A stretch of DNA of 26,403 bases from positions 1-26,403 of the IMG/VR virus record IMGVR_UViG_3300037258_000087. One strand, given 5' to 3'. Shown in pieces: positions 3,537 to 26,403 of this stretch. The notes below the pieces were generated by a model that was not told where the DNA came from, did no database searches, and saw nothing but the letters and a program-made list of their open reading frames with translations. The DNA comes from a virus. The stretch's first letter is position 1, and each line of letters begins with the position of its first letter. The position numbers were made by a program, and so were the translations under genes.

Positions 3537-3546
3537 AGCGGTCCCT

Positions 3547-5805: not shown

Positions 5806-5808
5806 GGA

Positions 5809-6321: not shown

Positions 6322-6324
6322 GGC

Positions 6325-11492: not shown

Positions 11493-11493
11493 G

Positions 11494-12561: not shown

Positions 12562-12649
12562 CCTTGATCCTTGCTTTCTTGATCGAGAACCCGGTGAGGG
12601 GTGGGAGTGACGGGTTATGGAGTTGTTGACCGAAGTGTACGGCCGGGAA

Positions 12650-12868: not shown

Positions 12869-13038
12869 CAGGTGGCCTTCCGCGTCCGTGTGCGGTCCAC
12901 TGGCCGCCTGGCGGGAGCGGTGCGGGCCTTCGGCTCGGAGACCTCTGCGGACGCCTCCACAGTGGCATCCGGGGCTTCGTCCACTACCACCGCATCCAGG
13001 GTCCGGTCGGTCGTTCCTGCCGACGTAGTCTTCCCCAT
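12868..13038 (-). CDS. Small basic/acidic disordered head-region protein (56 aa)
   Basis: The frame is open from 13092, but ATG 13038 overlaps the preceding stop (TAATG), giving 56 aa. The N-terminal half is Thr/Asp/Val-rich and acidic. The C-terminal half is strongly basic and Pro/Arg-rich (RRPVDRTRTRKAT). There are no membrane segments and no Cys. It looks disordered and could bind DNA or RNA electrostatically, or be an unstructured tail segment. The tight coupling on both sides argues that it is translated. Confidence 0.5.
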   Translation of the reverse strand: MGKTTSAGTTDRTLDAVVVDEAPDATVEASAEVSEPKARTAPARRPVDRTRTRKAT

Positions 13039-13502: not shown

Positions 13503-13503
13503 C

Positions 13504-13974
13504 TCAGACCGCCACCACGGATGCGCCGGTGTCCAGGGGGACGTAGGTCAGGTACCAGGCGATCACGCCGTCCATCGAAGTGCCCGACGTGGTGATGTCG
13601 ACCGTGCCAGCAGCCACGGCCAGGTATCCCTGTTTGAACCCGATCTCTGCGAATCCGACGGACCGGATGATCGAGTCACCCACTACTCCGGAGATGCCCA
13701 GGAGGTCGCCCGCAGGGGTGTCCGTGGTCCCGAGGTCCGTGGCGGTCACCAGGTCGCCCGAGGTTCCGGTGGTCGGGTTCGCCGACAGCTTGACGGTGTT
13801 GGCCACCGTCATCACGGTGGTCACCACACCCCAGAGTGCGGTGATCGCCACGTTTCCACCGGCGATGGTGAACAGGGACTTGGTCTCCGAGGCGCTGAGA
13901 GTGTACGGCTTGGCCGTCACCATGGCCCCGAGCAGCAGCTGTCGCTGCTGGCTGCCCTTGATTCCGCTGGACAT
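13504..13974 (-). CDS. Putative capsid decoration protein, tandem paralogue 1 (156 aa)
   Basis: This 156-aa protein starts at ATG 13974, three bases after the preceding stop, and ends one base before its paralogue begins. It shares with that neighbour the order of Gly/Thr-rich strands, the TTGTSGDL loop, the VDITTS strand and the closing WYLTYVPLDTG segment. It has no Cys and no enzymatic residues. The pair probably arose by tandem duplication followed by divergence. Small beta-barrel proteins here commonly coat or cement HK97-type capsids. Identity as decoration protein is unproven. Confidence 0.6.
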   Translation of the reverse strand: MSSGIKGSQQRQLLLGAMVTAKPYTLSASETKSLFTIAGGNVAITALWGVVTTVMTVANTVKLSANPTTGTSGDLVTATDLGTTDTPAGDLLGISGVVGDSIIRSVGFAEIGFKQGYLAVAAGTVDITTSGTSMDGVIAWYLTYVPLDTGASVVAV

Positions 13975-13977
13975 GGA

Positions 13978-14427
13978 TCACGCTCCCAGGATGGCGAGGT
14001 TCGCCGGGGTGCGCTGCACGGTGAGGTCGTGGAAGACCGCTACCAGGGTGGCGTTGGTGCAGGTGACCTTGAGGTAGTCGTACCCGTCGGCCATCTGCGA
14101 GCCGAAGATCGAGAAGACCGAGGTGTAGCCGGTCGTCCCGGCCAGGGCCAGGCTGTCGGTGGTCCACACGGCGGTCTGCTTGGTCCAGGCGGCGGTGCCG
14201 GTGTCGGACGTGGTCTGGTACCAGTGCGCGGCCTGGCCGAAGCCGTTGGCCGGGGTGAAGGCCGTGTAGCCGCTGCCGAACACCTTGGACGCGGTCACCA
14301 CGACGCTGGACGCGCCGGAGCTGGTGACGACGTACGAGACGGAGGACGCACCGGAGACGTTCAGGCCGACGGTGTCGGCCAGGCTGACGACGTTGAAGAC
14401 CCGTCCCAGTCCTTCCATTCCTGCCAT
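13978..14427 (-). CDS. Small beta-rich protein downstream of the capsid gene (149 aa)
   Basis: Start ATG 14427 has only a weak ribosome binding site (GAGAG). The protein begins with a short Met/Gly segment and continues with alternating Val/Ser/Thr strands (VSYVVTSSGASSVVVTASK). It contains aromatic stretches (AHWYQTT, AAWTKQTAVW) and ends with KVTCTNATLVAVFHDLTVQ. It is not obviously related to the next two genes but has similar bulk features. The place after the major capsid gene suggests another head-associated structural protein (decoration or head fibre). No family is recognised with certainty. Confidence 0.5.
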   Translation of the reverse strand: MAGMEGLGRVFNVVSLADTVGLNVSGASSVSYVVTSSGASSVVVTASKVFGSGYTAFTPANGFGQAAHWYQTTSDTGTAAWTKQTAVWTTDSLALAGTTGYTSVFSIFGSQMADGYDYLKVTCTNATLVAVFHDLTVQRTPANLAILGA

Positions 14428-14485
14428 GATCTACTCTCATTCCCGGACGGGGCGTGACTGCCGTCCATTGAGCCCTGCGGGCGGG

Positions 14486-14511
14486 CCGGGTCCGACGGAT
14501 GCCGGACCCGG
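14486..14511 (-). terminator. Hairpin after the major capsid gene
   Basis: CCGGGTCCG (14486-14494) and CGGACCCGG (14503-14511) form a perfect 9-bp stem with an 8-nt loop, 10 bases after the capsid stop (reading leftward). There is no U tract. In tailed phages a hairpin here often lowers expression of downstream genes relative to capsid protein or protects the capsid mRNA 3' end. Confidence 0.6.
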
Positions 14512-14521
14512 GTACTGCGAC

Positions 14522-15952
14522 CTACCGGCTCTGGAGCTGGACGAACGCCGAGAGGGTGCTGGCGCTGCTGTTGTGCGGAGTGAGCGCCGACTGCAGCCAC
14601 GGGCGGCCGTCCACCCGCTCGATGATCCGGTAGGCGATCTGGTCGTTCTGGAACAGGAACTGGTCGCTGCTGTCCACCCGGACCTGCTGGCGGTCACCGA
14701 TCAGGTAGTACGAGAGGTCCACGAAGTTGATGTCGCCCGTGGTGCCCAGGGCAGAAACCTTCTCTGTGAAGATCACCGGACGGCCGAGGATCGTCATGGG
14801 CGGGGTGTCCGCACCCGGCTGGCTGTAGCCGCCGATCCACACGGGACCGCCGCCGGTGCCCACGGACAGGGCCATGGTCGCCAGCTCCGGGAACGAGTCG
14901 ATGCTGGCGATCCACACCGCGCTCTTGAGCGAGGTGGGGAGCATCCGGGCGTACATGCCCACGATGTTCTCCCACTGGATCGTCGCCGACGCCTGCCCCG
15001 ACTGCTTGGACACCTGCACCGACGCCGGGCAGTTGATGAAGCCCAGCGGGGTTCCGACACCGGTCTCGGTCATGAACGCCACGTCCTCAGACCAGGCGAG
15101 ACCGGCCGGGATGCGGGTGTCGAACCACCCGGCGAACGCCGGGGCGTCGTCCAGGAGTTCGCGCGGGACCTTGAAGAACCCGGTCAGCTTCTTGGCGTCC
15201 AGGACGACCTTGCCGAAGGTCGCGGTGGACTCCGCGAGCGATGCGGCTTCCTCGGTCCAGTTGAAGACGACCCCACCGAACAGGCTGGAGACGTGGCTGG
15301 TCTCGTCCACGGTCGGGATCGGCACCCGCAGGGTGGACATGGGGATGACGGTCGCGCGCGGGCGCACGATCGACTCCTCCAAGGCCAGCTGGAGCAGCTC
15401 GGACCGCATGATCTCGGGGATCAGGAAGCCACCGGCTCCCGGCTCCTCGGAGCTGAAGGAGTTCTGGAACTCCTGCACGTTGCCCAGGCGGCGGAGCAGC
15501 TCCGCGCGGTTCTTCCGCGTGGTCGGGGACGTCGCCTCGCGGATCGCCTGGCAGTACTCGCCCATGGACGCGAAGCGGTCGTCCTCCTTGACGGACGCCT
15601 CCAGCACAGCGCCCATGGACGCCTTGTTGTAGACCGCGCCCTTGCCCTTGGCCACCATCGCGGTGCCGTCGGCAGTGAGGACCGGCTGCCCGTTCTGGAG
15701 CTGGGCACCGAGCTTCGGGCCGCCCTTGCCGGTCTCGCGGACCATGTCGAACAGCACCGACTGGACCTGGGTCCGGACCTCGTCCGTGGTGTCCGTGTTG
15801 TTCTTGGTGTACTGCTTGGCGTAGGCGTCCAGGAATTCCTTGGTCTCGCCGTTGGTCACCGCCTCCGGGCTGAAGAACTCCCTCAGCTTGGCGTGGTCAC
15901 CCAGCAGCTCCAGCAGCCCGTCAGAGGTGGTCGGAGCCATGAGCTTCGTCAT
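14522..15952 (-). CDS. HK97-type major capsid protein
   Basis: This 476-aa protein is encoded directly after the prohead protease; its ATG at 15952 overlaps the protease stop and follows AAAGGGGG. The N-terminal ~150 residues are helical and charged (ETKEFLDAYAKQYTKNN), like the delta domain removed during maturation. The rest follows the HK97 fold pattern: a GGFLIPEIMRSELLQL strand-helix near 170, PIPTVDET and FNWTEEAA in the E-loop/P-domain, KKLTGFFKVPRELLDD spine helix, WENIVGMYARM, and a C-terminal RVDSSDQFLFQNDQIAYR strand. It forms the icosahedral shell. The small genome (about 26 kb) suggests a capsid smaller than the usual T=7 size, which is inference. Confidence 0.9.
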   Translation of the reverse strand: MTKLMAPTTSDGLLELLGDHAKLREFFSPEAVTNGETKEFLDAYAKQYTKNNTDTTDEVRTQVQSVLFDMVRETGKGGPKLGAQLQNGQPVLTADGTAMVAKGKGAVYNKASMGAVLEASVKEDDRFASMGEYCQAIREATSPTTRKNRAELLRRLGNVQEFQNSFSSEEPGAGGFLIPEIMRSELLQLALEESIVRPRATVIPMSTLRVPIPTVDETSHVSSLFGGVVFNWTEEAASLAESTATFGKVVLDAKKLTGFFKVPRELLDDAPAFAGWFDTRIPAGLAWSEDVAFMTETGVGTPLGFINCPASVQVSKQSGQASATIQWENIVGMYARMLPTSLKSAVWIASIDSFPELATMALSVGTGGGPVWIGGYSQPGADTPPMTILGRPVIFTEKVSALGTTGDINFVDLSYYLIGDRQQVRVDSSDQFLFQNDQIAYRIIERVDGRPWLQSALTPHNSSASTLSAFVQLQSR

Positions 15953-17169
15953 CGTGCGCCCCCTTTCAGGGCATCGGCCAGCAGGCTTGCGAGCAGGCTG
16001 GTGTCCAACCGGTCACCCGGGTCGTAGTCCGGGTTGATCCTCTTCATCGCTGCCTGGAGTGTGGACTTGGCAGCGGAAGCGTTGGTGAGTCCTTCGGTCT
16101 GCGGGAGACGGGACAGTGCGTTCTTCACACCGGCCGCGTTCGGGGCGTCACCCGGGTGGTACTTGTAGGGCAGCGCCCAGGCAGCCTGGGTGGACTTGTC
16201 GCCCGCCTTCTCCCCGGCGCAGATGCCAGAGTAGAACGCTGCGGGGTCGTCGGAGGCGGACCCGTTGTGCCATGCCTTGGACGCATCCCACGGAGAGTTG
16301 TCCACGCCGTCGGCGTTGACCGGGCGCACCGAAGCGGAGTCGGCCGGCGCGGACGGCTTCGGCGGGATCGGCTTGACCTGGTTGCCGTCCTTGTCGAAGT
16401 AGTCGTTGTCGGTGTCGCCCTCGGGAGTCGAGTCGTCGTCTCCGTCGCCGTCGGGATCGAACCGCACCGTGCCGTCCGCACCCTTCACCCAGCCGTCGGA
16501 CCCGAGCGGCACATCCCCGATAGGGGCGGTGTTGACAGCCCTTGAGTACACCGAGAGATCCCAGCCGGCGGACGGCACCTCCTGACCGTGGATGCCGTCC
16601 GCCAAACCGTCCGCAACTGCTTCAGCGTCCGAGTACCACGTCTCTGCTGACATCTTCGCAAGCCAATAGTCCGACGGCTTTCCCGATCGCCCTGCGTAGA
16701 TGGACGCGATCTCACTCGTGATCTTGTCCAGAAGATCCGCCGTCTGACGAAGATCGTCCGCGTCCCCGATGGCCATGCTGAAACCATTATGGATCATCAT
16801 CTGGGAGTGCGGGGCCATCTCCAGTTTCCCCGGGCTGGCGGCCTGAGCAATGAAGGACGCGGCCGAAGCTGCTAGTCCGTCCACGATGACATGGACAGAT
16901 CCCTTGCGCTGCTTGAGCTGGTTGAAGATCGAGATCCCATCAAACACATCCCCGCCGGGACTGGAGATGTGTAGCTCGATATCGCCCTTGACCCCCTTGA
17001 GGTCAGCCAGAAATGACCCGGCAGACACCCCGTAAAACCCGATTTCGTCGTAGATGCTCACCTGAGCGGGAGATCCGTCAGCAGAATTGGCGATGGAGTA
17101 CCAGCCGGGGAGCGTCCCCTGGAGGTTCTGGAGCCTGCGGGTCGACCGCAGTGGCTTGGCCGCGTGCAC
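15949..17169 (-). CDS. ClpP-like prohead maturation protease with long C-terminal extension
   Basis: This GTG-started protein has 406 aa. Residues about 35-200 are a ClpP/S14-type serine protease: HISSPGGDVFDGISIF (oxyanion region), GLAASAASFIA with probable nucleophile Ser102, and MMIHN with catalytic His127. It would cleave the capsid delta domain and possibly itself. Unusually, it continues with an acidic Asp/Gly/Asn-rich stretch (about 237-263) that resembles calcium-binding loops. After a Pro-rich linker comes a conserved-looking domain (about 290-385) with WDASKAW, FYSGICAGEKAGD and LPYKYHPGD. Such a tail occurs in some actinophage proteases and could serve scaffolding. It starts one base into the HNH gene stop. 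Confidence 0.85.
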   Translation of the reverse strand: MHAAKPLRSTRRLQNLQGTLPGWYSIANSADGSPAQVSIYDEIGFYGVSAGSFLADLKGVKGDIELHISSPGGDVFDGISIFNQLKQRKGSVHVIVDGLAASAASFIAQAASPGKLEMAPHSQMMIHNGFSMAIGDADDLRQTADLLDKITSEIASIYAGRSGKPSDYWLAKMSAETWYSDAEAVADGLADGIHGQEVPSAGWDLSVYSRAVNTAPIGDVPLGSDGWVKGADGTVRFDPDGDGDDDSTPEGDTDNDYFDKDGNQVKPIPPKPSAPADSASVRPVNADGVDNSPWDASKAWHNGSASDDPAAFYSGICAGEKAGDKSTQAAWALPYKYHPGDAPNAAGVKNALSRLPQTEGLTNASAAKSTLQAAMKRINPDYDPGDRLDTSLLASLLADALKGGAR

Positions 17170-17624
17170 TACGTCACCTTCTTAGGATGCTTGAGAACCA
17201 GTCGGGACGCAGTCCGAACCCGGTGGCAGTTGGCGCATACCACTTCGCACTTCTCGATCTCTTCCCGAACAGCCTGCATGGATCGCGTCCCGGACCGAGA
17301 GATGCTGAACCTCTTCGTTCCCCGGACATGGTCGAAGTCCATGCAGATCGGGGGGAACATACCCCCGCAGTCCGCGCACGGGACGCTCTTGAGGTCGTCA
17401 AGGATCTTCTGCCGGTCGTCCCTCCGGTCCCGGTTGTACTCCGCGATCCAGTCCTTGTTGGACTGGCTGTAGTCCGCCAGGTACGCGGACTTCGCGGTAC
17501 GGCAGGGCTCGCAAGCGGCTTCACCCGCACGAACGTGTGCCTGATGGCCAGCAGGAGTTCCGGTTCGACCGTGGCGGGAGCATGCAGTGTGTTCCATACC
17601 TCGTATTCTGCAACACGTCCTCAC
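17169..17624 (-). CDS. HNH endonuclease with N-terminal Cys/His module
   Basis: The GTG at 17624 overlaps the portal stop (GTGA), giving 151 aa. Residues 11-45 carry the HGRTGTPAGHQAHVRAGE...CEPC motif, common in actinophage proteins and probably zinc-linked. The C-terminal half is an HNH fold: CADC (83-86), MDFDHVRG with His99, and CANCHR with Asn132 and His134. The two CxxC knuckles bind structural zinc. HNH proteins coded near terminase and portal assist DNA cleavage during packaging in HK97-like cos phages, while others are mobile homing nucleases. Tight overlap with both neighbours argues for the packaging role. Confidence 0.8.
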   Translation of the reverse strand: MRTCCRIRGMEHTACSRHGRTGTPAGHQAHVRAGEAACEPCRTAKSAYLADYSQSNKDWIAEYNRDRRDDRQKILDDLKSVPCADCGGMFPPICMDFDHVRGTKRFSISRSGTRSMQAVREEIEKCEVVCANCHRVRTASRLVLKHPKKVT

Positions 17625-19003
17625 CTCCCGCTCACCTCCACCGGGATATAGCCGTTGCTCAGTACCTTGCGCAGCAGGGCTGCCATGTCCTCACCGGGCC
17701 CGGCAGGCGCAGCGGGAGCGCCTGGCTCCGCAGGCGGCACGGCGACCCAGCCGGGCGGGAGTGACGGGCTCTGGGTCGCCTTCTCGACCACACCCATGTC
17801 GGGCAGGCCCACGACCTCCAGCACATCACCGGGATCGAATCCGGCAGCCACCAGTGAAGCGGCGGCGGCGGCCTTGCCTGCCAGTTCGGTGACAGCCGTC
17901 TCGGCGTTGACCGGGCTCGGGTCGTCGTAGTCGAACTCCACGTTGGCCCCGGTCGACCCGAACAGCGGCAGCAGTTTGGAGTTGAGCGTGTCGCGGCGGC
18001 GGTTCAGCCGGGGCAGGATCTGCCAGGCTACGAAGACCTCCTGCGCCGTCTGGGCATTGGCCCGGTTGACGTCGTCGGCCGTGCCCAGCATGGTCTTGTG
18101 GATGCGCCACGCCTCGCGGAGTTCATCGCGGTTGGCCAGCCGGAGTTCGCCGTACTCCATGTCCTTGTTGGTGTGCGCCGACGGGTTCCACTCCGCGCCG
18201 TCTTCCAGTACGCCGACGTGGCCGGCACGGGCGACGCCACGGTGGGACTCGCGCCAGCGGTCCACCAGCTGATCGAAGTCACGATCGTTCAGCTTGTTCG
18301 GGACAGTGATGACGCCACCCGGGTCGGCACCGTTCAGGAACAGGTTTCGCTGGTACTCGGTGGCGTACCGCTGCTGCTGGATATTGGGCATGATCGCTGC
18401 GACCGGACCGGCACCCCGGTACGGGTCCAGCGGATCGGGCCGCTTCTCCAGGATCACTTCGGACGCCTTCAGCGGTACCTGCTCGCCGTTGGGACCCGTG
18501 TAGATCCACCCCGTCAGTGTCCCGTCAGGTGCGGGCACCGGCTCCATGCGGTCGGGGCGGACGTACCAGATACCGGTGGGAAACCCGATCTCGGTGTCCA
18601 GGACCCAGAAGGTCTCCCCGGTCAGTTCCTCGTGCTGCTGGCTTCCCTCACGGAACTCGAACCCCGAGTGCATCGTGTTGGGCTGGTTCCACAGCTGGAT
18701 CGCCGGATGCTGGATCACTTCGGTGCGCTGGTCGCTGCCCTGGTCGCCGGTGGTATACCGGCGGCGGCCGTCTACCGGCTGCTTCCGGTACAGCCGCCAT
18801 GTGGGCGTAGCGGAGGCTTCCGCCAGCAGGGACACGATGGAGAACACCGTGCCGGACATGCCGTACTGGCGCATGGACGTCTCGCGGTCCTGGCGGCCGT
18901 TGCCCAGGGTGAAGCTGTGGCCCCGCAGCAGGCTGCCTGTGTTGCCGACGTTGACCGGCGGCGCTCCCTGGGCGTTGCGGACCTTCCGCAGGAAGCTAGT
19001 CAC
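17621..19003 (-). CDS. Phage portal protein (HK97/SPP1-like)
   Basis: This 460-aa protein is coded between terminase and prohead protease. After a short basic start it has MRQYGMSGTVFSIVSLLAEA and TPTWRLYR. A wing/clip region with EVIQHPAIQLWNQPN, WYVRPDRMEPV and VILEKRPDPLDPYRG follows, then the stem/crown helices (QYRNLFLNGADPGGV-like segment near 225-240, WRIHKTMLG near 285). The C-terminal 60 residues are Pro/Ala/Gly-rich and likely flexible. Twelve copies would form the ring through which DNA passes. The GTG start overlaps the preceding small membrane gene by eight bases. Confidence 0.88.
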   Translation of the reverse strand: MTSFLRKVRNAQGAPPVNVGNTGSLLRGHSFTLGNGRQDRETSMRQYGMSGTVFSIVSLLAEASATPTWRLYRKQPVDGRRRYTTGDQGSDQRTEVIQHPAIQLWNQPNTMHSGFEFREGSQQHEELTGETFWVLDTEIGFPTGIWYVRPDRMEPVPAPDGTLTGWIYTGPNGEQVPLKASEVILEKRPDPLDPYRGAGPVAAIMPNIQQQRYATEYQRNLFLNGADPGGVITVPNKLNDRDFDQLVDRWRESHRGVARAGHVGVLEDGAEWNPSAHTNKDMEYGELRLANRDELREAWRIHKTMLGTADDVNRANAQTAQEVFVAWQILPRLNRRRDTLNSKLLPLFGSTGANVEFDYDDPSPVNAETAVTELAGKAAAAASLVAAGFDPGDVLEVVGLPDMGVVEKATQSPSLPPGWVAVPPAEPGAPAAPAGPGEDMAALLRKVLSNGYIPVEVSGR

Positions 19004-19229
19004 CGCCGTCCGTCTTCCAGTCCAGGGCCAGCAGCGACAGGCCGGAGACGACGAACCCGGCGATGGTGTTCCCGACGAACGCGCCGGTATCGATCATGGC
19101 GAAGGCCGCCACGGTGAGTCCGTGGTCGGCCAGCCATCCGGTAGTCACGGTGCGTACCCTGCGCCAGCGGACCAGGACCGGACGCGCGCGGGAGGCACTC
19201 CAACGAGCGGGAGCAGCCTCTACCGCCAT
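18996..19229 (-). CDS. Small membrane protein between terminase and portal (77 aa)
   Basis: ATG 19229 is preferred over an upstream GTG (19250) because GGAGG sits seven bases before it. The product has a basic N-terminal region (about residues 10-30) and one or two membrane segments between about 37 and 70 (GLTVAAFAMIDTG, NTIAGFVVSGLSLLAL). It ends in an acidic WKTDGGD. Comparable short membrane genes occur between terL and portal in actinophages and their role is unknown. Holin activity is conceivable but nothing specific supports it. The gap 19230-19295 upstream holds no gene on either strand. Confidence 0.7.
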   Translation of the reverse strand: MAVEAAPARWSASRARPVLVRWRRVRTVTTGWLADHGLTVAAFAMIDTGAFVGNTIAGFVVSGLSLLALDWKTDGGD

Positions 19230-19295
19230 TGCCGGGCCTCCGTTGTCCACATGTGATAGGAGTGTCGCACGGACTGGCCGGTATGTACAAGGAGG

Positions 19296-20603
19296 TCACA
19301 TGCGGAACGACCGGTAGCGCGGCGTGCGCCCCAGGTCCTTCTCAGCGGTCATGTACCTGGTGCAGTCCATGCCGTGATCGTCCACCTTCAGCGGCTGCTC
19401 CTTGGCCTGCTTGCCGTTGCCCGTGTCCCAGATGTAGCCGACGATCTCCTCCAGCGTGCTCTGGGGCTTGCCCACGTCCTTCAGTGCCTGGTCCAGGCGC
19501 ACCACGGCGTCCCGGCAGAACACCAGCCGCGCCCTGCCGTCAGCCTGCGGCCGGAGCCGGACGGCTACCGCCTGGATTCCCTCGCTGACGTTCTTGGTCG
19601 CAGCCCGGGTGGACATCAACAGGTGCCGCTCCAGCGTCGCCCGGTCTTCGGCGTCGTGGTCGCAGATGATCGCGTACGGCCGGGCGTCCATCACCGCCAG
19701 GATGTCTTTGGCGTGGTCCTCCACCAGCCGGCGGGTCCGGTAGATCTCCTTGTACATGTACAGCCGACCGTCGGGGTCCTCCGCCCAGAACTGGCAGACG
19801 AACGGATTGGTGAAGCCGAAGTCCACGACCCAGTAGCGGGGCCAGTCCTTCGGCGGAACGAACGCGTCGCAGACGTTGAGCACCGGGTCGAACTCTTCGT
19901 AGATCAGACCCTCGGCAGCCACCCACAGGCCGCGTCGCAGCCGCTGGTACCGCACCCCGGTCAGTGCGTCCAGCTTGCCGATGTAGTCCCGTCCAGCGGC
20001 CGTCAGGACACCGCCCCGGTACAGCACCGGGTTATCCTCGTGCCGGGATTCGAGCAGCACGGTCTGCCCGGCGTCACACCGCTGCTTGAGCCAGTGGTGC
20101 GGGACGCCGGGGTTGGCATCAGAGATCAACTGCTGATACGGCATCACGCCGTTCCGGAGCCTGGTTGTGACGGCTTCCCAGTCGTCCAGTGTCAGTTCGG
20201 TGGCTTCCTGGACGAACACCATGTCGTACTCGGTGGACATCACCCGGGACGCCTTGTCGAGTCCACCGAGCGTGATCGTGCTGCCGTTGTCGTACCGGTA
20301 CTGGGCTGCTTCCTGCGCACTGCCGCCGTAGAACGACACCATCCCGGACCTGATCGCCTCAGCGGCCACGTGCTTGCGGTAGGTCACCAGACCGGACGAC
20401 GTCAGCGACACCTGGGTCTTGCGCAGCATCAGGCCGCGCGCGTCCGGGTACTTCATCATGGCCGCATTGATCTTCTCCAGCGCCGCACGGCTCTTGCCCG
20501 TGCCCGCCGGCCCGGAGAGTAGAAGCTCTCCGTCCCGGCGGCGGAACAGCTCAGCCGCCGCGCCGATCGGCGCATACCGGTGCACCAGCGCGGCGGCGGT
20601 CAC
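19296..20603 (-). CDS. terL: Terminase large subunit (packaging ATPase/nuclease)
   Basis: GTG 20603 is chosen because it shares GTGA with the stop of a 34-aa gene and gives 435 aa, the usual size; the frame is open to 20753. The ATPase domain shows Walker A GPAGTGKS (31-38), an adenine-binding-like RKTQ segment (~61), and a Walker B/catalytic segment DMVFVQEATE (127-136). The RNase H-like nuclease domain has DFGFTN (Asp261) and CDHDAED (Asp315 region), and a third acidic cluster lies near the C-terminus (KVDDHGMD). It docks on the portal, pumps DNA and cuts concatemers. The set of motifs is intact, so packaging should be active. Confidence 0.92.
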   Translation of the reverse strand: MTAAALVHRYAPIGAAAELFRRRDGELLLSGPAGTGKSRAALEKINAAMMKYPDARGLMLRKTQVSLTSSGLVTYRKHVAAEAIRSGMVSFYGGSAQEAAQYRYDNGSTITLGGLDKASRVMSTEYDMVFVQEATELTLDDWEAVTTRLRNGVMPYQQLISDANPGVPHHWLKQRCDAGQTVLLESRHEDNPVLYRGGVLTAAGRDYIGKLDALTGVRYQRLRRGLWVAAEGLIYEEFDPVLNVCDAFVPPKDWPRYWVVDFGFTNPFVCQFWAEDPDGRLYMYKEIYRTRRLVEDHAKDILAVMDARPYAIICDHDAEDRATLERHLLMSTRAATKNVSEGIQAVAVRLRPQADGRARLVFCRDAVVRLDQALKDVGKPQSTLEEIVGYIWDTGNGKQAKEQPLKVDDHGMDCTRYMTAEKDLGRTPRYRSFRM

Positions 20604-20704
20604 CGGTGCGGCCAGACCGCATCGAAGGAACCGGCGACCAGGCACAGCCATCCGACGACCTTGCCCGGCAGGTAGGCCCACTTGCGCGGCCGGGGATTGC
20701 TCAC
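20600..20704 (-). CDS. 34-aa small protein translationally coupled between terminase subunits
   Basis: A GTG start at 20704 lies behind AAGGAGAAGGA. It overlaps the TerS stop (GTGA), and its own stop at 20602-20600 overlaps the TerL GTG in the same way. The peptide starts VSNPRPRKWAYLPGK and continues with a short hydrophobic stretch (VVGWLCLVAGSFDAVW) before ending PHR. The double coupling and good ribosome binding site favour real translation. It might be a membrane microprotein or mainly a coupling device that delivers ribosomes to terL. Confidence 0.6.
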   Translation of the reverse strand: MSNPRPRKWAYLPGKVVGWLCLVAGSFDAVWPHR

Positions 20705-21249
20705 AGTCCTTCTCCTTCTGTCTGGCCCGGCATGACGATCTCGTAGCGGACACCGCCGGACAGGTCCACTTTCTGGGCAGCGTCCGCTCCCAGGAGCTTG
20801 CGGCGCGACTCGGACACCTGCCGGAGCTGAGCGGCGGCCTGGACGCCCGGACCGTCGTCCAGGACCGGTACCAGGGTCATGGTGCCGTCGGCGTCCTCGG
20901 ACTCCAGCCGGACCACCTTGCCGTGCTGGACCATCAGGTGCTCGCGCTCCATGACGCCCAGGAGGTACGCCTCAAGCCGGTCCAGCTTGGCCAGTTCCAG
21001 CTTCAGCACCTCTAGGCCGCCTTCGCTGCGCACAGCGGCCAGAGCCCGCTGGACTCGTTCCCAGGCAGTGTCAGGGGCGCATCCCATCTCCGCTGCGATA
21101 GCCCGGTAGCTCATCGACCTGGAGCGCAGCCGGGCCGCTTCGGCGTCCAGGTCAGCGGTCTCCAGGGTCGCAATGAACCTGCCGTCCGGGCCCTTCGTCC
21201 GCGTGGCCTGGTGTCCGGTCGGCTCCGGTCGGACAACGTCACCAGCCAC
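20701..21249 (-). CDS. terS: Terminase small subunit
   Basis: This 182-aa protein is encoded just ahead of terL; its GTG start (21249) overlaps the previous gene by 11 bases. Residues about 35-70 form a helix-turn-helix (RSRSMSYRAIAAEMGCAPDT then WERVQRAL), the DNA-recognition domain that finds the packaging site. Two long helices follow (about 80-105, LKLELAKLDRLEAYLLGVM), suitable for ring assembly. A C-terminal helix (SESRRKLLG) precedes an acidic tail likely to contact TerL. Family assignment is from HTH, length and position. Confidence 0.82.
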   Translation of the reverse strand: MAGDVVRPEPTGHQATRTKGPDGRFIATLETADLDAEAARLRSRSMSYRAIAAEMGCAPDTAWERVQRALAAVRSEGGLEVLKLELAKLDRLEAYLLGVMEREHLMVQHGKVVRLESEDADGTMTLVPVLDDGPGVQAAAQLRQVSESRRKLLGADAAQKVDLSGGVRYEIVMPGQTEGEGL

Positions 21250-21706
21250 GACGACGCTCCACGGCCGGGCCTTCCAGGACGACGGGCACGCCCACGGCGA
21301 ACGGTGCCGCCGGCGCGGTCTGCGCGTCGCCGTTCCCGTTGCTGAACTGGTCGGGGTCGCGCATCGGCGGTACCAGGCCGCAGGCGTGGAACAGCCGCAG
21401 CAGGTCTGCTTCTACCCGCTGCTTGACGTGGACCACGAACGCGTCGCCGCGCGCCACGTCGGCGGCACCGGCTGCCTGGAGGTCGGACAGGTCGGACCCG
21501 AAGGCCACCGCCTGGGTGTTCAGGGCCTTGATGGACGCGGCCTGGTTGGTGGCCGCCGTACCCAGCTGGGTGAGGGCGGCGGCCTGTGCAGCCACGGTCT
21601 GCTGGAGACCGGCGATGACGGCCTCGTCCGCTGCCTGGCTGGCCATGACCGTGGCCATCTGGCTCATCAGCAGGACCACGTTCGGGTCGGGATCGGGAGT
21701 AGCCAT
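21239..21706 (-). CDS. Ala/Gln-rich coiled-coil protein of unknown role (155 aa)
   Basis: ATG 21706 has AAAGGAAGA seven bases upstream. Residues about 15-75 form a long Ala/Gln/Thr helix with heptad spacing (MATVMASQAADEAVIAGLQQ...). A second helical part (about 80-110) contains GDAFVVHVKQRVEADLLRLF, and a Pro-rich tail closes it. It is the first gene after the iteron-like region and is coupled to terS by an 11-base overlap. It may help TerS or control packaging, but I recognise no family. A small scaffold or DNA-segregation accessory protein would also fit. Confidence 0.55.
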   Translation of the reverse strand: MATPDPDPNVVLLMSQMATVMASQAADEAVIAGLQQTVAAQAAALTQLGTAATNQAASIKALNTQAVAFGSDLSDLQAAGAADVARGDAFVVHVKQRVEADLLRLFHACGLVPPMRDPDQFSNGNGDAQTAPAAPFAVGVPVVLEGPAVERRRGW

Positions 21707-21720
21707 TGGATCTTCCTTTC

Positions 21721-21896
21721 GGGTGGCTCATTGGGTGGCTCATGCGTATACGGATGAGCCAGGCTCATGAGCTAGCTCATCCGTGAGCCCTTTTGGCTCG
21801 TTGTGCAGGTCAGACGGTGGCTCATGGGTGGCTCACGAGAGAAAGGCTCACCAAACGGCTCCTCCCCAGTCTCTAGGACTGGGGAGCCGATGAGCC
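21721..21896. repeat. Iteron-like array of GGCTCAT/ATGAGCC (candidate origin or operator)
   Basis: About a dozen copies occur in 176 bp. Direct copies lie at 21725-21731, 21737-21743 (12-bp spacing, both within GGGTGGCTCAT), 21762-21768, 21819-21825, 21830-21836, 21845-21851 and, degenerate, at 21795-21800 and 21857-21862. Inverted copies lie at 21754-21760, 21767-21772, 21783-21789 and 21890-21896. ATGAGCCAGGCTCAT (21754-21768) and ATGAGCTAGCTCAT (21767-21780) are perfect palindromes, and CGTATACG (21745-21752) is another. The array fills the non-coding gap 21707-21872 next to the primase-helicase gene, as plasmid iterons do. Confidence 0.85.
21862..21886 (-). terminator. Hairpin enclosing the stop codon of the primase-helicase gene
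   Basis: CTCCCCAGTC (21862-21871) and GACTGGGGAG (21877-21886) make a perfect 10-bp stem with a 5-nt loop that contains the gene's TAG (21875-21873). It could end transcription between the replication gene and the virion genes, or act at the translation level or as part of the origin. No U tract follows on the leftward transcript. Confidence 0.6.
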
Positions 21897-23876
21897 ATCC
21901 GTGATTTCTATCGGAACGATCTCCTTGAACCGCGTCGTGGACGGTGCTCCGGAAGCGGTGAGAACCGGCTTGATCCGTCCCTGCTGAACGAGGTCGTTCC
22001 ACGCACGCTTGAAGGTGGCCAGGGCCATGGACTTCGGTACGGTCAACTGCTTCACCTCCGTCTTGGTGAAGTCGTCCGCTCCCCGCCAGATCCTACGAAT
22101 GATCTCCATCACCTTGGCCTGGCTGGGGAGCATGTCGCCCGGCAGGTCCGGCAGCGGGTCATCCCGGTAGTCGTCCGACTCCTCCTGAACCAGTACCACG
22201 GACGTCTGAGCCGGGGTGAAGTCGAACGGGTCCTCCTCCCTCGTGACGATGACCTCGAGGACGAACGTCTTCGTAGCGCCTTCATCCTCATCCTTCTCCT
22301 TGGTGTTCTCCAGGACGTAGCGGGTGGTGCCGTTCTTCTTCTTGACCATCATGAACTCCGTGTTGATCCCGCCCATGACGCTGCCTCCGCCGCTGCCTCC
22401 TTCACCGCCCTTCGGTGTGTGGTGCGCCAGCATGACGCACGCCCCTGTGTCCCGCTTCAGCTGGTCCAGGCGTTCGACCACCAGACCCAGCTCCGTGTTG
22501 TCGTTCTCCTTGATGCCGACGGTTACCCGGCGCTGGGTGTCCAGCACGATGAACTTGGCGTTCAGCCTCTGGCAGACCTTCGTGTAGGCGTCCCACTCCG
22601 GACCCATCACCTGGAGCGGCTCCGGCAGGAAGTACACGCCGGTCATCCGGCGTCCGTTCTTCTGCTCCCATGCGCGGACACGCTTCTTGAAGCCCCGAAC
22701 GCCCTCCGCCACGATGTAGACCACGTTGCCCTGGGTAGCTTCGTGGCCGTTCCACGGGACGCCCGTCCCGATACACGCGGCCCAGTCCAGGGCCACCAGC
22801 GACTTGCCCGACCCGGGCTCACCGTTCACCCGGCAGAGGGTCTCCAGGGTGAGCCAGCCACGGATCAGCGGCTCAGGGTCCCGGATGCTGTCCAGGGCCT
22901 CCGTGTCCAGGAGCCTGGCCATCAGGGCGTCCACGGGGTCCACGGCCGCGACGACCGGCACCGCGTCCGCCAGCGTCCAGCCGGCCGCGAAGTGGTCCCA
23001 CGGGTCCTTTCCCGTGCGGGCCTGGACGACCTCGACCGCGAGTCCGGCCTCCCGCAGGTACGCGGCACGTGTCTCTGCGCACTTGCGGCCGGGGTCGTCG
23101 TTGTCCTGCCAGATCCGCACCAGGGACGCGCCCCGCAGGCTCTCGGTGTACGAGGGCAGCCACTTCGCGCCGGCTCCGGCAGCCACGGTGGTCGGGACCA
23201 GGCCCACGGCGTTCAGCGCGTAGCAGTCCTTCTCGCCCTCGCAGAGGTCGATCACACCTCCGCCCGCGCAGGTCTTGAGCACGTTCCGCAGCTTGTACAG
23301 GACCGGATGGACGCCGTCCATGGACCTCACGCCGTCGGCGTTCTCCTGGTGGAACGTCTTGCCCACGCCCCGGACGTTGTAGTGGGCCGTGGTTCCGTCC
23401 TCGTTGCGGTACTCGTACCTGGCTGCCTCCGGATGCGGGGTGGAGAAGAACTCCGGTACCGGTCCGGGCTCCGGTTCCGCATCGCTCAGGGGTGTGTCGA
23501 ACAGGTCCCGCATCCGCAGGCCCAGTGCTGCGGCCACATCCGACGTGGGGCATGCACCGCTTTTGCAGTCGATCAGTACCCTGTCCCCGCCGTCGGTGAC
23601 CACCAGCGCCGCACTGTTGCCGCCGTGCACCGGGCAGAACCAGCGCTTACCGGTCCCGGAGCCCGTGCTGTCGCAGCCGTGGGCGTCCAGGGCCGCTGTG
23701 AAGCGCTCGTAGGCCGACCCCTCGGTATCCGTGCCCTCCCGGAGTCCCAGGGCCGCGTTGCGCTCCCTGCGGGTCGCCTTGACCTCCGTGTCGGCCGCGT
23801 CGGCGTAGGCCACCCTCATGTCCGTGTAGCCCATCGCCCGGTGACCGTTCGCTGTCTCGGACGCGCTCTCGCTCAT
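21873..23876 (-). CDS. Replication primase-helicase (Zn finger, TOPRIM, RepA/AAA_25-type helicase)
   Basis: The frame is open to 23990, but ATG 23876 overlaps the upstream stop (ATGA), giving 667 aa. A primase-like zinc finger comes first (CPVHGG with Cys81/His84, then Cys104 and Cys109). A TOPRIM core follows, with CEGEKD (212-217) and QDNDDPG (257-263). The helicase domain has Walker A GEPGSGKS (352-359), Walker B FIVLDT (442-447), a RepA-type VMLAHHTPK segment (481-489) and a Gly-rich loop (GGEGGSGGGS). The last ~90 residues look like a winged helix (VPKSMALATFKRAWNDLVQQG). This can prime and unwind DNA and is the element's probable replication initiator, next to an iteron-like array. Confidence 0.88.
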   Translation of the reverse strand: MSESASETANGHRAMGYTDMRVAYADAADTEVKATRRERNAALGLREGTDTEGSAYERFTAALDAHGCDSTGSGTGKRWFCPVHGGNSAALVVTDGGDRVLIDCKSGACPTSDVAAALGLRMRDLFDTPLSDAEPEPGPVPEFFSTPHPEAARYEYRNEDGTTAHYNVRGVGKTFHQENADGVRSMDGVHPVLYKLRNVLKTCAGGGVIDLCEGEKDCYALNAVGLVPTTVAAGAGAKWLPSYTESLRGASLVRIWQDNDDPGRKCAETRAAYLREAGLAVEVVQARTGKDPWDHFAAGWTLADAVPVVAAVDPVDALMARLLDTEALDSIRDPEPLIRGWLTLETLCRVNGEPGSGKSLVALDWAACIGTGVPWNGHEATQGNVVYIVAEGVRGFKKRVRAWEQKNGRRMTGVYFLPEPLQVMGPEWDAYTKVCQRLNAKFIVLDTQRRVTVGIKENDNTELGLVVERLDQLKRDTGACVMLAHHTPKGGEGGSGGGSVMGGINTEFMMVKKKNGTTRYVLENTKEKDEDEGATKTFVLEVIVTREEDPFDFTPAQTSVVLVQEESDDYRDDPLPDLPGDMLPSQAKVMEIIRRIWRGADDFTKTEVKQLTVPKSMALATFKRAWNDLVQQGRIKPVLTASGAPSTTRFKEIVPIEITDGSSAPQS

Positions 23877-24103
23877 GCCGCCCTCACCACGGTCTCCAGG
23901 CCGCTGGTCACGTACGGCATCCGGAGCAGCTCCCCGAAGTCGGGGTGGTCCTCGCTGAAGCGGAATCCGCACCGGGAGCACCCGAGCCACTGGGTCCAGT
24001 TGGCGGAGAGGCTGTCCCGCGTCTCCAGGGGCGCTCCGAAACAGTCGTGGGTACCGTCCGCGCTCCGTCGCCGGTCCGTTTCGGTCGTGCTAGCGTTGCT
24101 CAC
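23873..24103 (-). CDS. Small Cys/His protein, first gene of the leftward unit (76 aa)
   Basis: The GTG at 24103 follows an excellent AAGGAGA. The N-terminus is Ser/Thr/Arg-rich. A possible metal site is formed by HDC near residue 19-21 and LGCSRCGFRF near 42-50 (one CxxC knuckle). The C-terminus is an amphipathic helix. It is directly coupled to the primase-helicase gene, so a role in replication or its control is likely. No family is recognised. The knuckle with GFRF resembles Zn-ribbon domains of small phage proteins. Confidence 0.65.
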   Translation of the reverse strand: MSNASTTETDRRRSADGTHDCFGAPLETRDSLSANWTQWLGCSRCGFRFSEDHPDFGELLRMPYVTSGLETVVRAA

Positions 24104-24124
24104 AGCGAAATCTCCTTCGCTCTC

Positions 24125-24156
24125 GCCCCCGGTTGGCTTCCCACCATCGCGGGGGC
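24125..24156 (-). promoter_or_regulatory. Leader hairpin of the leftward operon
   Basis: GCCCCCG (24125-24131) and CGGGGGC (24150-24156) form a 7-bp GC-only stem around an 18-nt loop in the 5' leader, about 20 bases before the first start codon. A second inverted repeat, CGGAC-N5-GTCCG, lies at 24169-24183. They could terminate or attenuate leftward transcription; nothing shows which factor would act. Confidence 0.5.
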
Positions 24157-24223
24157 TCTTCCATGTCCCGGACCGCGTGTCCGAGAAGCGTAGCCCGGTT
24201 CTGCGGTCCTGGTCGTCCCCCTG

Positions 24224-24254
24224 ATCATACCACTATTGACCGTCCTATGGTCAT
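24224..24254 (-). promoter_or_regulatory. Leftward promoter candidate for replication/virion operon
   Basis: On the minus strand ATGACC (24254-24249) and TATGAT (24229-24224) are separated by 19 bp. The -10 matches the primary sigma consensus at five of six positions; the -35 matches four of six and its spacing is long. Its -35 region overlaps that of the rightward promoter. The transcript would have a leader of about 110 nt. Confidence 0.5.
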
Positions 24255-24264
24255 GCGGTACAGT
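24236..24264 (+). promoter_or_regulatory. Strong rightward promoter giving a leaderless mRNA
   Basis: TTGACC (24236-24241) and TACAGT (24259-24264) are separated by exactly 17 bp, close to the HrdB/sigma-70 consensus. The expected start point, six to seven bases after the -10, coincides with the ATG at 24271, and no ribosome binding site precedes that ATG. This predicts a leaderless transcript for the RHH gene. Confidence 0.75.
24237..24253. promoter_or_regulatory. Candidate RHH operator between overlapping divergent promoters
   Basis: TGACC (24237-24241) and GGTCA (24249-24253) are inverted repeats separated by 7 bp, with further copies GGTCAT at 24249-24254 and ATGACC at 24271-24276. The site covers both -35 elements. 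Part of the symmetry follows simply from two -35 boxes facing opposite ways, so binding by the RHH protein is a hypothesis. Confidence 0.45.
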
Positions 24265-24270
24265 GTGCGT

Positions 24271-24417
24271 ATGACCAAAACCGAGAGAGGGACCGTTCAA
24301 GTGGCTGTGTACCTCCAGCCCGCTGAACGCCAGTCCCTCCGGGAGGTGGCAGCGGCGAGCGGAGTATCGATGTCCGTCTTCGTTGCCCGCCTTATCCGGA
24401 AGGAGCTGGACAAATGA
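24271..24417 (+). CDS. Ribbon-helix-helix (CopG/Arc-like) regulator, 48 aa
   Basis: The frame is open from 24133, but the near-consensus promoter ends six bases before ATG 24271, which is therefore the start. The product has a beta strand (VQVAVYLQPA) followed by two helices (ERQSLREVAAASG and SMSVFVARLIRKELDK), the complete RHH fold. Such proteins bind DNA as dimers through the strand, often at their own promoter, and control plasmid copy number or phage development. Its gene opens the rightward (transfer) unit and lies opposite the replication/virion operon, so it is the best candidate for the regulator that chooses between them. It is coupled to the next gene by ATGA. Confidence 0.8.
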   Translation: MTKTERGTVQVAVYLQPAERQSLREVAAASGVSMSVFVARLIRKELDK

Positions 24418-24632
24418 CCGGAAACGTGACCCGCGAAGAGAGCAATGGGCGGATCACCTGCAACCCCTGCCACCGCCCCATCGGGCGCGGGGATGTGTAC
24501 CTGGCCCTGGAGCGGGTCCACCTGGGCGGCCGTACCCGGATTCTGAACGCGCACCCCGGCCACCTGGTCCACGGACCGGTGGCGGCCGGATCGCTCGCGC
24601 CGTCGGTGACCGCGTCGGGGGTGTCGGCATGA
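24414..24632 (+). CDS. Small zinc-ribbon-like protein (72 aa)
   Basis: The ATG overlaps the RHH stop. One knuckle is visible (TCNPCHRPIGRGDVY, CxxC then His), and a NAHPGHLVH segment about 30 residues later could provide His ligands. The combination resembles short metal-binding proteins of actinophages in which CxxC pairs with a later HxxH-type motif. The C-terminal 20 residues are Ala/Gly/Ser-rich. No specific role is known; it could be a regulatory or host-takeover protein. It shares its end with the next start (ATGA). Confidence 0.6.
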   Translation: MTGNVTREESNGRITCNPCHRPIGRGDVYLALERVHLGGRTRILNAHPGHLVHGPVAAGSLAPSVTASGVSA

Positions 24633-24886
24633 TGTCCGCCGCCCGCCTTCGCCAGATCGAGGCGTTCACGGACCACGAACTGGTGACCGCATGCGAACTG
24701 CAAGGCTTCGTCACGGAGCTTCTCGCCGCCGTCCGGGAGATCCCGGAATGCGCCCGCTGCGGCGACACCGGCCACTGCGCATGCTTCCACGACGCCTGCC
24801 GCGTGTGCGGCAGCAAGGACCACGGCCGGCACTCCGGCGGTTCCCTGGCAGCGGGCGTCAGTGCCGCCGGAAAGGTGTCGGCATGA
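24629..24886 (+). CDS. Small protein with clustered Cys motifs (85 aa)
   Basis: The start is ATG 24629 (overlapping stop), with a second ATG immediately after. The N-terminal 40 residues are helical (HELVTACELQGFVTELLAAV). Residues about 41-66 hold CARCGDTGHCACFHDACRVCG, a compact set of six Cys and two His in DnaJ-zinc-finger-like spacing. A Gly/Ser/Ala tail ends it. It probably binds two zinc ions and may contact nucleic acid or protein. It is a member of a run of four coupled small genes. Confidence 0.6.
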   Translation: MMSAARLRQIEAFTDHELVTACELQGFVTELLAAVREIPECARCGDTGHCACFHDACRVCGSKDHGRHSGGSLAAGVSAAGKVSA

Positions 24887-25137
24887 CCAGGAAGGTGGAC
24901 CGGCCGCACCTGCGCACGGGTACCCAGGGGATGGCCCGCCCTGCGGCCAAGCTCACTGACGCGGAGGTGGTCCGCATCCGCGAGCAGTACGCGGCCGGCA
25001 CGGCCAACCAGCGTCGCCTGGGCCTCTACTACGGGGTGACGTGCAGCGTCGTCGGGCACATCGTCCGGGGCGAGTCCTGGACCCACGTCGGAGGACCGGT
25101 CACCCATGCGGGGCGGGGTGCTCAGGACCGTGGCTGA
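24883..25137 (+). CDS. Small helix-turn-helix DNA-binding protein (84 aa)
   Basis: The ATG at 24883 overlaps the previous stop. Residues about 20-68 form an HTH of the kind found in phage and HNH-associated proteins: AKLTDAEVVRIREQYAAG, then a turn with YYGVTCSVVGHIVRGESW. The N-terminus is basic. It probably binds DNA and may assist regulation of the transfer unit or replication; no operator is identifiable. The C-terminal ~15 residues are Gly/Arg-rich and may be unstructured. Confidence 0.65.
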   Translation: MTRKVDRPHLRTGTQGMARPAAKLTDAEVVRIREQYAAGTANQRRLGLYYGVTCSVVGHIVRGESWTHVGGPVTHAGRGAQDRG

Positions 25138-25357
25138 CATGGAACTCAAGTGCCTCTCGTGCATCGTTGAGCACAAGATGTGGAACCAGACGGTCACCTC
25201 CGCCCGGGGCGTGGAACCCGAGATGCGGACCGCCGTCACCCTGGCCGCGATCGAAGGACTCGGTCCGGTCACCCCGATCTGCTACCAGCACCTCCAGATC
25301 AACCGGCCCACCGGCCTGATGATCGCAAACGGTCAGCTCCCGTCCCCCGGCCGCTGA
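25130..25357 (+). CDS. Small Cys-containing protein (75 aa)
   Basis: GTG 25130 overlaps the previous gene by eight bases (GTGGCTGA), the same arrangement as at 10403-10410; ATG 25106 and ATG 25139 are alternatives. The protein carries KCLSCIVEHK (CxxC, then His) and, about 45 residues later, TPICYQHLQ (Cys and His), a plausible four-ligand zinc site. A central helix (VTLAAIEG) and a short Pro-rich end complete it. This pattern is typical of actinophage small proteins near regulatory genes. Function unknown. Confidence 0.6.
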   Translation: MADMELKCLSCIVEHKMWNQTVTSARGVEPEMRTAVTLAAIEGLGPVTPICYQHLQINRPTGLMIANGQLPSPGR

Positions 25358-25402
25358 CAGCACTCTCCCGGCACACGAGCCGGAACCGACAGGGGAAATG
25401 AA

Positions 25403-25570
25403 ATGAAGGACGTCGAACGCACCCTCCGCAAGGCGTACCGCGTGGACGCGGACGCCGCAGCCCTGATCAGGGCCAACGAGATGACGGGCAAGTACGATCA
25501 CCCGTCCTGGATCAGCCGCAGGATCGCATCCGTGATCGACAGGTACACCGACTGGAAGTGCCCGAAGTAG
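25403..25570 (+). CDS. Small helical protein of unknown function (55 aa)
   Basis: ATG 25403 has AGGGGAA about six bases upstream. The charged, all-helical product starts MKDVERTLRKAYRVDAD and contains a WISRRIASVIDRYTDW segment with aromatic residues suited to dimerisation or nucleic acid binding. It ends WKCPK. The gene stands alone between short gaps: 25358-25402 has no feature and 25571-25656 has a hairpin. I recognise no family. The good ribosome binding site and codon use like its neighbours support it. Confidence 0.6.
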   Translation: MKDVERTLRKAYRVDADAAALIRANEMTGKYDHPSWISRRIASVIDRYTDWKCPK

Positions 25571-25585
25571 CCGAACAGCAGAGAC

Positions 25586-25612
25586 GGCGCTCCCCCTGAC
25601 AAGGAGAGCGCC
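25586..25612 (+). terminator. Hairpin before the tra cluster
   Basis: GGCGCTC (25586-25592) and GAGCGCC (25606-25612) form a 7-bp stem, with two more G-C pairs inside after a mismatch. It separates the small regulatory genes from the transfer genes and probably reduces read-through. The ribosome binding site AAAGGAG of the next gene follows about 30 bases later. Confidence 0.6.
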
Positions 25613-25656
25613 GCACCGCACCGGATACAACCGCCCGACCCGCAAAGGAGAGCATC

Positions 25657-25995
25657 GTGTCCCAGCCCCTTGATCGTACCGCCCCCGAGTCCTCCGACAC
25701 CGACCTCACCATCAGGATGCTGGTCTCCGTCAGCTCCACGTGCCTGGACCTGGTCGCCAAGCTCGACCACGAGCGCCGCGAGCTGCGGCGCGAGCTGTCC
25801 CTGGAACGGGAGGTCAGCGCGGCCCTGTCCCCGTCCGCCGACAGCCATGCGCTTCTCGGCCGCGACGACCGGACCGAGGTCCTGGACCGGATCGAGATGG
25901 CGCGCAAGCGCTACGAGGCCAACCGCCCCGTCTCCCGGGACGGCGGCCCGCAGGACACACCCACCGTCCGGCTGCGGCCCCGGCGGACGCCGTGA
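25657..25995 (+). CDS. Coiled-coil hydrophilic protein upstream of traB (112 aa)
   Basis: GTG 25657 follows AAAGGAG (25644-25650). The middle of the protein (about residues 18-55) is a strongly charged helix (LVAKLDHERRELRRELSLER) likely to form a coiled coil. A second helix (TEVLDRIEMARKRYEANRP) and a basic Pro/Arg tail follow. Genes of this type precede traB in several Streptomyces transfer regions, though none has a defined function I can name from sequence. It ends in a GTGA overlap with the next gene, so it belongs to the transfer operon. Confidence 0.65.
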   Translation: MSQPLDRTAPESSDTDLTIRMLVSVSSTCLDLVAKLDHERRELRRELSLEREVSAALSPSADSHALLGRDDRTEVLDRIEMARKRYEANRPVSRDGGPQDTPTVRLRPRRTP

Positions 25996-26099
25996 GCGAC
26001 GTGTCGGCCGCCCCCGCGCTGTTCGGCTTCCTGGTCGTCGGTATCGGCCGGATAGCTCTCAAGCGCAAGACCAGGCGCAGGAATCGGAGGAAGCGATGA
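25992..26099 (+). CDS. 35-aa single-TM protein with a polybasic tail
   Basis: The GTG at 25992 overlaps the previous stop and its TGA (26097-26099) overlaps the traB ATG. The sequence has a short Ser/Ala start, one membrane segment (about residues 8-23, ALFGFLVVGIGRIAL) and a tail with ten Arg/Lys in the last dozen residues (KRKTRRRNRRKR). By the positive-inside rule the tail is cytoplasmic. A membrane anchor that binds DNA or the TraB motor fits both the charge and the location. The role is inferred. Confidence 0.65.
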   Translation: MSDVSAAPALFGFLVVGIGRIALKRKTRRRNRRKR

Positions 26100-26403
26100 G
26101 CACGCCAACGCCTGACTGGCACGATCAGATCAAGAGAATCCAAGCAGAACTGACCGCGAGTCCGTCCGCGCACGCGTCCGTCCGTCCGGGTCCGTCCGGC
26201 GCGTCCGGCCTGATCGGAGTGCATGCGGGCGCGAGTGCGACTCCCGGACGGACGCCGGACGCCGGACAGCTGAACGCCCTCTGGCACGGCTTCGCTCCCG
26301 TCCTCGGAGGCATCGGGTTCTTCGGCGCGCTCACCTGGGCCGTGGGATCGGAGACCGGCCGCAGGACAACCGTCTACCTGGCCGGGGCGACCTGGACAGC
26401 ACT
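26096..26403 (+). CDS. traB: FtsK/TraB-type DNA translocase, 5' part (continues at base 1)
   Basis: This is the N-terminal part of the 571-aa translocase described at 1-1535. ATG 26096 lies in ATGA shared with the upstream stop; AGGAAG lies six bases before it, inside the upstream gene. The first 18 residues form an amphipathic helix (PDWHDQIKRIQAELTA). A low-complexity linker (about residues 20-60) follows, then the membrane segment. The linker is coded by GTCCG/CGGAC repeats. Bases after 26276 duplicate the start of the window. Codon 61 ends at base 26278, i.e. base 2 of the window, so the protein continues without a break. Confidence 0.85.
   Translation, partial: MSTPTPDWHDQIKRIQAELTASPSAHASVRPGPSGASGLIGVHAGASATPGRTPDAGQLNALWHGFAPVLGGIGFFGALTWAVGSETGRRTTVYLAGATWTA
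26160..26267. repeat. GTCCG / CGGAC repeat cluster in the 5' end of traB
   Basis: Eight GTCCG copies lie in 26160-26207 (26160, 26164, 26176, 26180, 26184, 26190, 26194 and 26203, several overlapping by the shared G). Four inverted CGGAC copies start at 26245, 26249, 26256 and 26263. The two blocks are 37 bp apart and could form a large imperfect stem. The encoded residues are an unconstrained Pro/Ser/Ala/Gly linker. Confidence 0.75.
26277..26403. repeat. Right copy of the 127-bp terminal duplication
   Basis: Identical to bases 1-127. It should be removed when the molecule is circularised; the unique sequence ends at 26276. Confidence 0.93.

Follow-up and report, generated by a model that had tools for sequence, protein, structure and literature searches.

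What decides the route of travel is an open question for elements that combine virion formation with conjugation. In the element described here, the question comes down to a short region and a single tiny protein, which makes it readily testable. The window, i.e., the whole stretch of DNA that was analyzed, is a record of 26,403 bases carrying a 127-base direct terminal repeat at its ends (26277-26403 equals 1-127), so that a circle of 26,276 bp is its most likely form. Two outward-directed units, one on each side of a short control region, fill the window and converge near 2.93 kb:

24271..24417, plus strand: ribbon-helix-helix (RHH) gene, 48 aa, predicted to be leaderless
24414..26099, plus strand: remaining small genes of the rightward unit; several contain Cys/His-rich or HTH-like sequence
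26096..26403, plus strand: 5' part of an FtsK/TraB-like transfer ATPase gene, which reads on into 1-1535 once the element is circular
1..1535, plus strand: 3' part of the FtsK/TraB-like gene, with an FtsK_SpoIIIE domain and a C-terminal winged helix
1538-2476, rightward unit, 3' of the ATPase gene: membrane-type gene, then two short genes to about 2900
23873..24103, minus strand: first leftward gene, 76 aa, GTG start, with a good Shine-Dalgarno (SD) sequence, GAAGGAG
21873..23876, minus strand: replication gene for a primase/helicase with domain matches to Toprim and AAA_25
2967..21706, minus strand: virion genes, including terS, terL, portal, ClpP-like protease, major capsid, tape measure and tail

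This genome layout supports the region 24224-24276 as the putative main control point of the element.

The gene content combines two ways of travel. As expected of a phage-plasmid, the virion gene set is complete (terS, terL, portal, protease, capsid and tape measure), the portal being called by homology to relatives. The ATPase shows the composition of Streptomyces TraB-type proteins, an FtsK/SpoIIIE-like translocase with a C-terminal winged helix; its Pfam match to FtsK_SpoIIIE equals the cut-off (24.0 bits; cut-off 24.0), MarR_2 is matched under the cut-off at 433-472, and identity to Streptomyces plasmid proteins is at most 34% over about 80%. The similarities of capsid, ATPase and portal point to a streptomycete or a close relative as the probable host, with the capsid 45% identical to that of Streptomyces phage Dagobah and the portal 55% identical to its match in a Kitasatospora contig. 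Among the proteins scanned from the window, we found no integrase, partition gene or relaxase and no convincing lysis gene, the tape-measure protein giving one weak, partial match to ‘endolysin’ in PHROGs; no tRNAs were found, and no Rfam match exceeded its cut-off. The best explanation, which taken as a whole we regard as evenly balanced, is a small circular actinobacterial phage-plasmid-like element. P1- and N15-like phage-plasmids (PMC10879196) likewise join virion genes to plasmid-type genes, with no integrase identified here; unlike them, the window element pairs a Streptomyces-type transfer ATPase with a full virion module. In P1-like derivatives, conjugation-related functions accompanied the loss of phage genes (PMC10879196).

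The control region harbors two divergent promoters, both candidates for recognition by the housekeeping sigma factor and placed back to back, whose activity we infer from their sequences:

24236..24264, plus strand: rightward promoter, -35 TTGACC (24236-24241), 17-bp spacer, -10 TACAGT (24259-24264), predicted start at the A of the ATG at 24271
24224..24254, minus strand: leftward promoter, extended -10 TGGTATGAT (24232-24224), weak -35 ATGACC (24254-24249), 19-bp spacer, predicted start at about 24216-24217

The rightward promoter, reported in a preliminary description of this DNA as TTGACC-17-TACAGT, is present as claimed. It is the single match to TTGAC-N(16-19)-TANNNT on both strands of the window and the sole match of a sigma-70 scan, with chance expectations of 0.3 per window for such promoters and 0.03 for those in leaderless register (first-order Markov model, same composition). 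No stretch of the window is more AT-rich than the promoter interval, which shares this rank with others. A pattern search of viral contigs for the same promoter yielded none. On the leftward side, where ATGACC-19-TATGAT had been proposed, both boxes are in place, yet they are best read as an extended -10 element with a poorly spaced -35: TATGAT (24229-24224) follows a TG that sits where an extended -10 has it (TGG-TATGAT), and TGNTATRAT occurs once in the window, with 0.11 occurrences expected. Owing to this extended -10, the leftward promoter is probably independent of its badly spaced -35, which is possibly dispensable. The -35 regions, said to overlap, are separate hexamers 7 bp apart, each inside the spacer of the other promoter. 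As the predicted starts are 54-55 bp apart (24271 versus about 24216-24217), the polymerase footprints would nevertheless overlap. Both the sequence and the recurrence among related phages support exclusive occupancy of the divergent promoters, as originally suggested, and the geometry argues for collision or exclusion.

The rightward -10 box ends 6 nt 5' of the ATG at 24271, and the RHH mRNA probably starts at its own first codon. This spacing matches that of leaderless genes, which have a -10 box about 6-7 nt 5' of the start codon and no SD. Pairing with the anti-SD at the RHH start is accordingly weak, at -3.2 kcal/mol weaker than at any other annotated start in the comparison, most of which lie at -5 to -13. 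In-frame ATGs at 24247 and 24253 would give forms of 56 and 54 aa if transcription started further upstream. In S. coelicolor, about 21% of mRNAs are leaderless, and Streptomyces regulators often are (PMC4895711).

Since no close relative of the RHH gene was found in the collections searched, we turned to phages sharing the virion module, and compared ten small RHH genes from the window and these phages. In six of the ten (window, L066, L053, L049, L074 and L054), a TANNNT box lies 6-7 nt ahead of the start codon; the remaining four do not have such a box, and three of them have an evident SD. As a yardstick, this kind of box precedes an ATG close to the start in 17 of 1080 ORFs of 80 aa or more (1.6%), genes that are larger than the RHH genes. 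Because L074 came from the promoter scan, the unbiased count is four of the eight RHH genes found without the promoter as a criterion, still far over 1.6%. The claim of a leaderless RHH gene is thus strengthened by the weakest SD, by the low chance expectation in this register and by recurrence in virion-module relatives. The relatives' RHH proteins are 12-33% identical to that of the window, so that a common role is not assured. In L053, the leaderless RHH gene reads TTGATA-17-TAGAGT-6-ATG, and an extended -10, TGGTAGTAT, lies on the minus strand no more than about 35 bp from the RHH start, repeating the divergent arrangement; a divergent extended -10 was found at just two of the six leaderless RHH genes. 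Recurrent leaderless RHH genes in this phage group provide a simple signature for finding more control points. The 44.9-kb record L053/L156 (IMGVR_UViG_3300037187_000017) combines the same virion module with a D5 helicase, an integrase, a GntR regulator and two RHH genes. It also carries a TcpE/VirB4-like/TrbL/NlpC-P60 set, as is typical for conjugation by type IV secretion, and has the appearance of a virion/T4SS-like hybrid.

The assignment of the 48-aa product as an RHH-like protein is upheld by structure prediction, Foldseek and weak Pfam matches (NikA-like, Antitox_RHH and RHH_1). The best of these, NikA-like, has an E-value of 3.4e-5 and 24.4 bits versus a cut-off of 27, RHH_1 scores 14.8 versus 20.5, and no curated Pfam profile exceeded its cut-off. 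A single-sequence AlphaFold2 model (pLDDT 86.7) contains confident helices at residues 17-30 and 34-47, with the strand unassigned in the lone monomer, and agrees with the beta-alpha-alpha fold of about 45 aa that characterizes the RHH (MetJ/Arc/CopG) superfamily, whose members dimerise by means of the N-terminal strand and also use it to bind DNA. Foldseek matches were nearly all RHH proteins, with NikA as the best, and comprised StnY, Arc, CopG, AmrZ and RHH antitoxins (probability at most 0.99, E-values 0.05 and higher). No sequence match was found in the PDB, and searches for close relatives in phages, plasmids, viral contigs and 249 genomes (a Kitasatospora-centred family sample) returned distant matches only.

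Where could such a protein bind? The inverted repeat TGACC (24237)/GGTCA (24249), which had been noted across the two promoters, does exist, but as evidence for an operator or for RHH binding it does not rise above chance: a 5-bp inverted repeat as good as this one is present in 25% of random 53-mers of matched composition and in 39% of real ones. Motifs mapped genome-wide in S. coelicolor are NTGACC for the -35 and TANNNT for the -10 (PMC4895711). As NTGACC is the -35 consensus there, TGACC/GGTCA amounts to the two facing -35 boxes of back-to-back promoters; being identical to these boxes and no rarer than chance, it was rejected as an operator. A better candidate operator, judged from sequence, is a longer repeat that the preliminary description had missed, the first of the following elements:

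24248..24277, unstranded: candidate operator TGGTCATGCG-N10-CGTATGACCA, 9/10 pairs, over the rightward -10, the leftward -35 and the RHH start codon
24222..24230, plus strand: third operator-like half-site TGATCATAC, over the leftward -10

The arms of the candidate operator are centred on the rightward -10, and one of them includes ATGACC, a common start-codon context. A repeat of this kind is present in 1.2% of composition-matched 57-bp sequences, which is only moderately unusual and uncorrected for search multiplicity. TGRTCATRC, a motif picked after the region was seen, occurs five times in the window, three of them in the control region, and three similar 9-mers within 57 bp are not rare (13%). 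The inverted repeats at the other leaderless RHH starts are of sizes expected by chance and none is shared, and a common operator is not claimed. Overall, the preliminary description is partly confirmed: it is largely right, with two corrections, and its operator has been replaced. A palindromic ATGATCAT at 2964-2971, where the outward units converge, resembles the TGATCAT half-site at 24222.

The reach of the leftward promoter depends on what follows it, and two structured elements were predicted in this direction:

24104..24217, minus strand: leader of 114 nt predicted for the leftward unit, folding into stable stem-loops (-53.3 kcal/mol, z -3.0)
21862..21886, minus strand: stem-loop with a perfect 10-bp stem where the helicase gene ends; it may act as a terminator or processing site ahead of the virion genes

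One hairpin of the leader takes in the SD of the first leftward gene. At the end of the helicase gene, a 56-nt stretch folds at -32.4 kcal/mol (z -3.9), and because of this strong stem-loop the virion genes may not simply follow the leftward promoter. The gap between helicase and virion genes (166 bp, 21707-21872) is repeat-rich and has no TANNNT on its coding strand. Stem-loop and gap, as judged by sequence features, may separate replication from virion transcription, and the virion genes may need read-through or an activator at the gap. About ten TGGCTCAT/ATGAGCC repeats in both orientations occupy 21720-21897; they are candidates for a replication origin, for a clt locus, in which TraB binds short repeats, or for a site that controls late genes.

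We consider the best explanation, to which we assign an even chance, to be that the protein is an RHH autorepressor of the CopG/Arc/KorA type at a central bidirectional control region, repressing both outward units. The two promoters would not be occupied together. The rightward one would produce a leaderless mRNA for the RHH gene, the small genes and the FtsK/TraB-type transfer ATPase, and the leftward extended -10 promoter a transcript with the structured leader and the replication gene; the virion genes would be served from it too, either directly or through read-through. A dimer or tetramer of the RHH protein would bind sites in 24222-24277 and repress its own and the divergent promoter. 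In the established element, the protein would keep transfer and replication low; upon entry into a new cell without RHH protein, both units would fire until it accumulates. DNA binding, repression of both sides, promoter activity and exclusive occupancy of the control region are what we infer for this scheme.

A narrower role is unlikely, namely that the protein regulates its own gene and the rightward transfer unit, with the leftward promoter constitutive and the virion genes controlled at the gap 21707-21872 or by a host factor. The position of the best inverted repeat, centred on the rightward -10, and the stem-loop and repeat array between helicase and virion genes agree with it, yet a protein on 24248-24277 would also cover the upstream part of the leftward promoter, and the third half-site lies over the leftward -10. 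The same operator geometry bears on the hypothetical two-way switch, in which promoter exclusion and RHH repression of the leftward promoter alone would separate a rightward transfer or plasmid mode from a leftward replication or virion mode. Two outward units with overlapping footprints would suit such a switch, as would an RHH gene on the transfer side, whose expression would keep the virion side off. We nonetheless hold it to be unlikely, given that the candidate operator spans the RHH start and both promoters, which fits double repression, that replication is required in both states while the helicase gene sits on the ‘virion’ side, that the strong stem-loop 3' of the helicase gene suggests separate control of the virion genes, and that no Cro-like opposing regulator was identified leftward. 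The broader proposition, that a 55-bp region and one 48-aa RHH protein choose between TraB-type conjugation and virus particles and that leaderless mini-repressors of this kind serve related actinobacterial phages where virion and conjugation modules meet, strikes us as distinctly doubtful.

Two further readings take the protein out of this regulatory role or tie it to a partner. A NikA/MobC-like transfer accessory protein, binding an origin of transfer and not regulating promoters, would accord with NikA as the best match in both Pfam (under the cut-off) and Foldseek and with an RHH gene inside the transfer unit. RHH matches of all kinds score alike, however, and the partner relaxase expected of such a protein is missing among the scanned proteins. 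FtsK/TraB-type ATPases move double-stranded DNA without a relaxase, and the transfer ATPase here is of this type. We judge a NikA/MobC-like function very unlikely. Least probable is that the protein is the orphan, antitoxin-like half of a toxin-antitoxin pair and controls its own operon; a weak Antitox_RHH match in Pfam and antitoxin structures among the Foldseek matches speak for it, but neither Pfam nor PHROGs gave a toxin-family match for the next gene (24414-24632).

An RHH autorepressor of both sides has counterparts in known systems. If the protein merely represses both units, the locus would be a compact relative of known copy-number and transfer control. CopG of pLS1/pMV158, the 45-aa RHH repressor of the copG-rep operon, is alike in size, predicted fold and an expected autoregulation, exerted at a promoter on which replication depends as well. 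For pMV158, CopG has been shown to repress the copG-rep operon from which it is itself expressed, and its absence is required for establishment (PMC5717011). The likeness extends to L053, where the RHH gene heads the replication unit and is directed into the genes with the D5-type replication helicase. In the window, by contrast, the RHH gene is not cotranscribed with a rep gene as in CopG-type systems; it is divergent from the helicase gene, heads the transfer unit and has an mRNA predicted to be leaderless. The korA and tra promoters of the Streptomyces plasmid pIJ101 are divergent. KorA/KorB of that plasmid (PMC4170104) resemble the window protein, in the role proposed for it, as plasmid-coded repressors of a TraB/FtsK-type transfer gene, and the hosts are of the same kind, whereas the window protein is RHH, not a member of the Kor repressor families, and its gene lies inside the transfer unit of an element that also carries a full virion module. 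Arc of phage P22 is similarly a small RHH repressor at a phage regulatory promoter; unlike the window protein, it belongs to a two-operator anti-immunity system with Mnt, and no Mnt or antirepressor was identified in the window.

A helicase-based search returned L135 as the best relative (49%). In this region of a streptomycete genome (G224:C25:230000-249900), no RHH relative was detected by phmmer and no structural genes were recognised; it contains DUF2637-like, helicase and terS-like genes and one that is FtsK-like by position, and is satellite-like in appearance.
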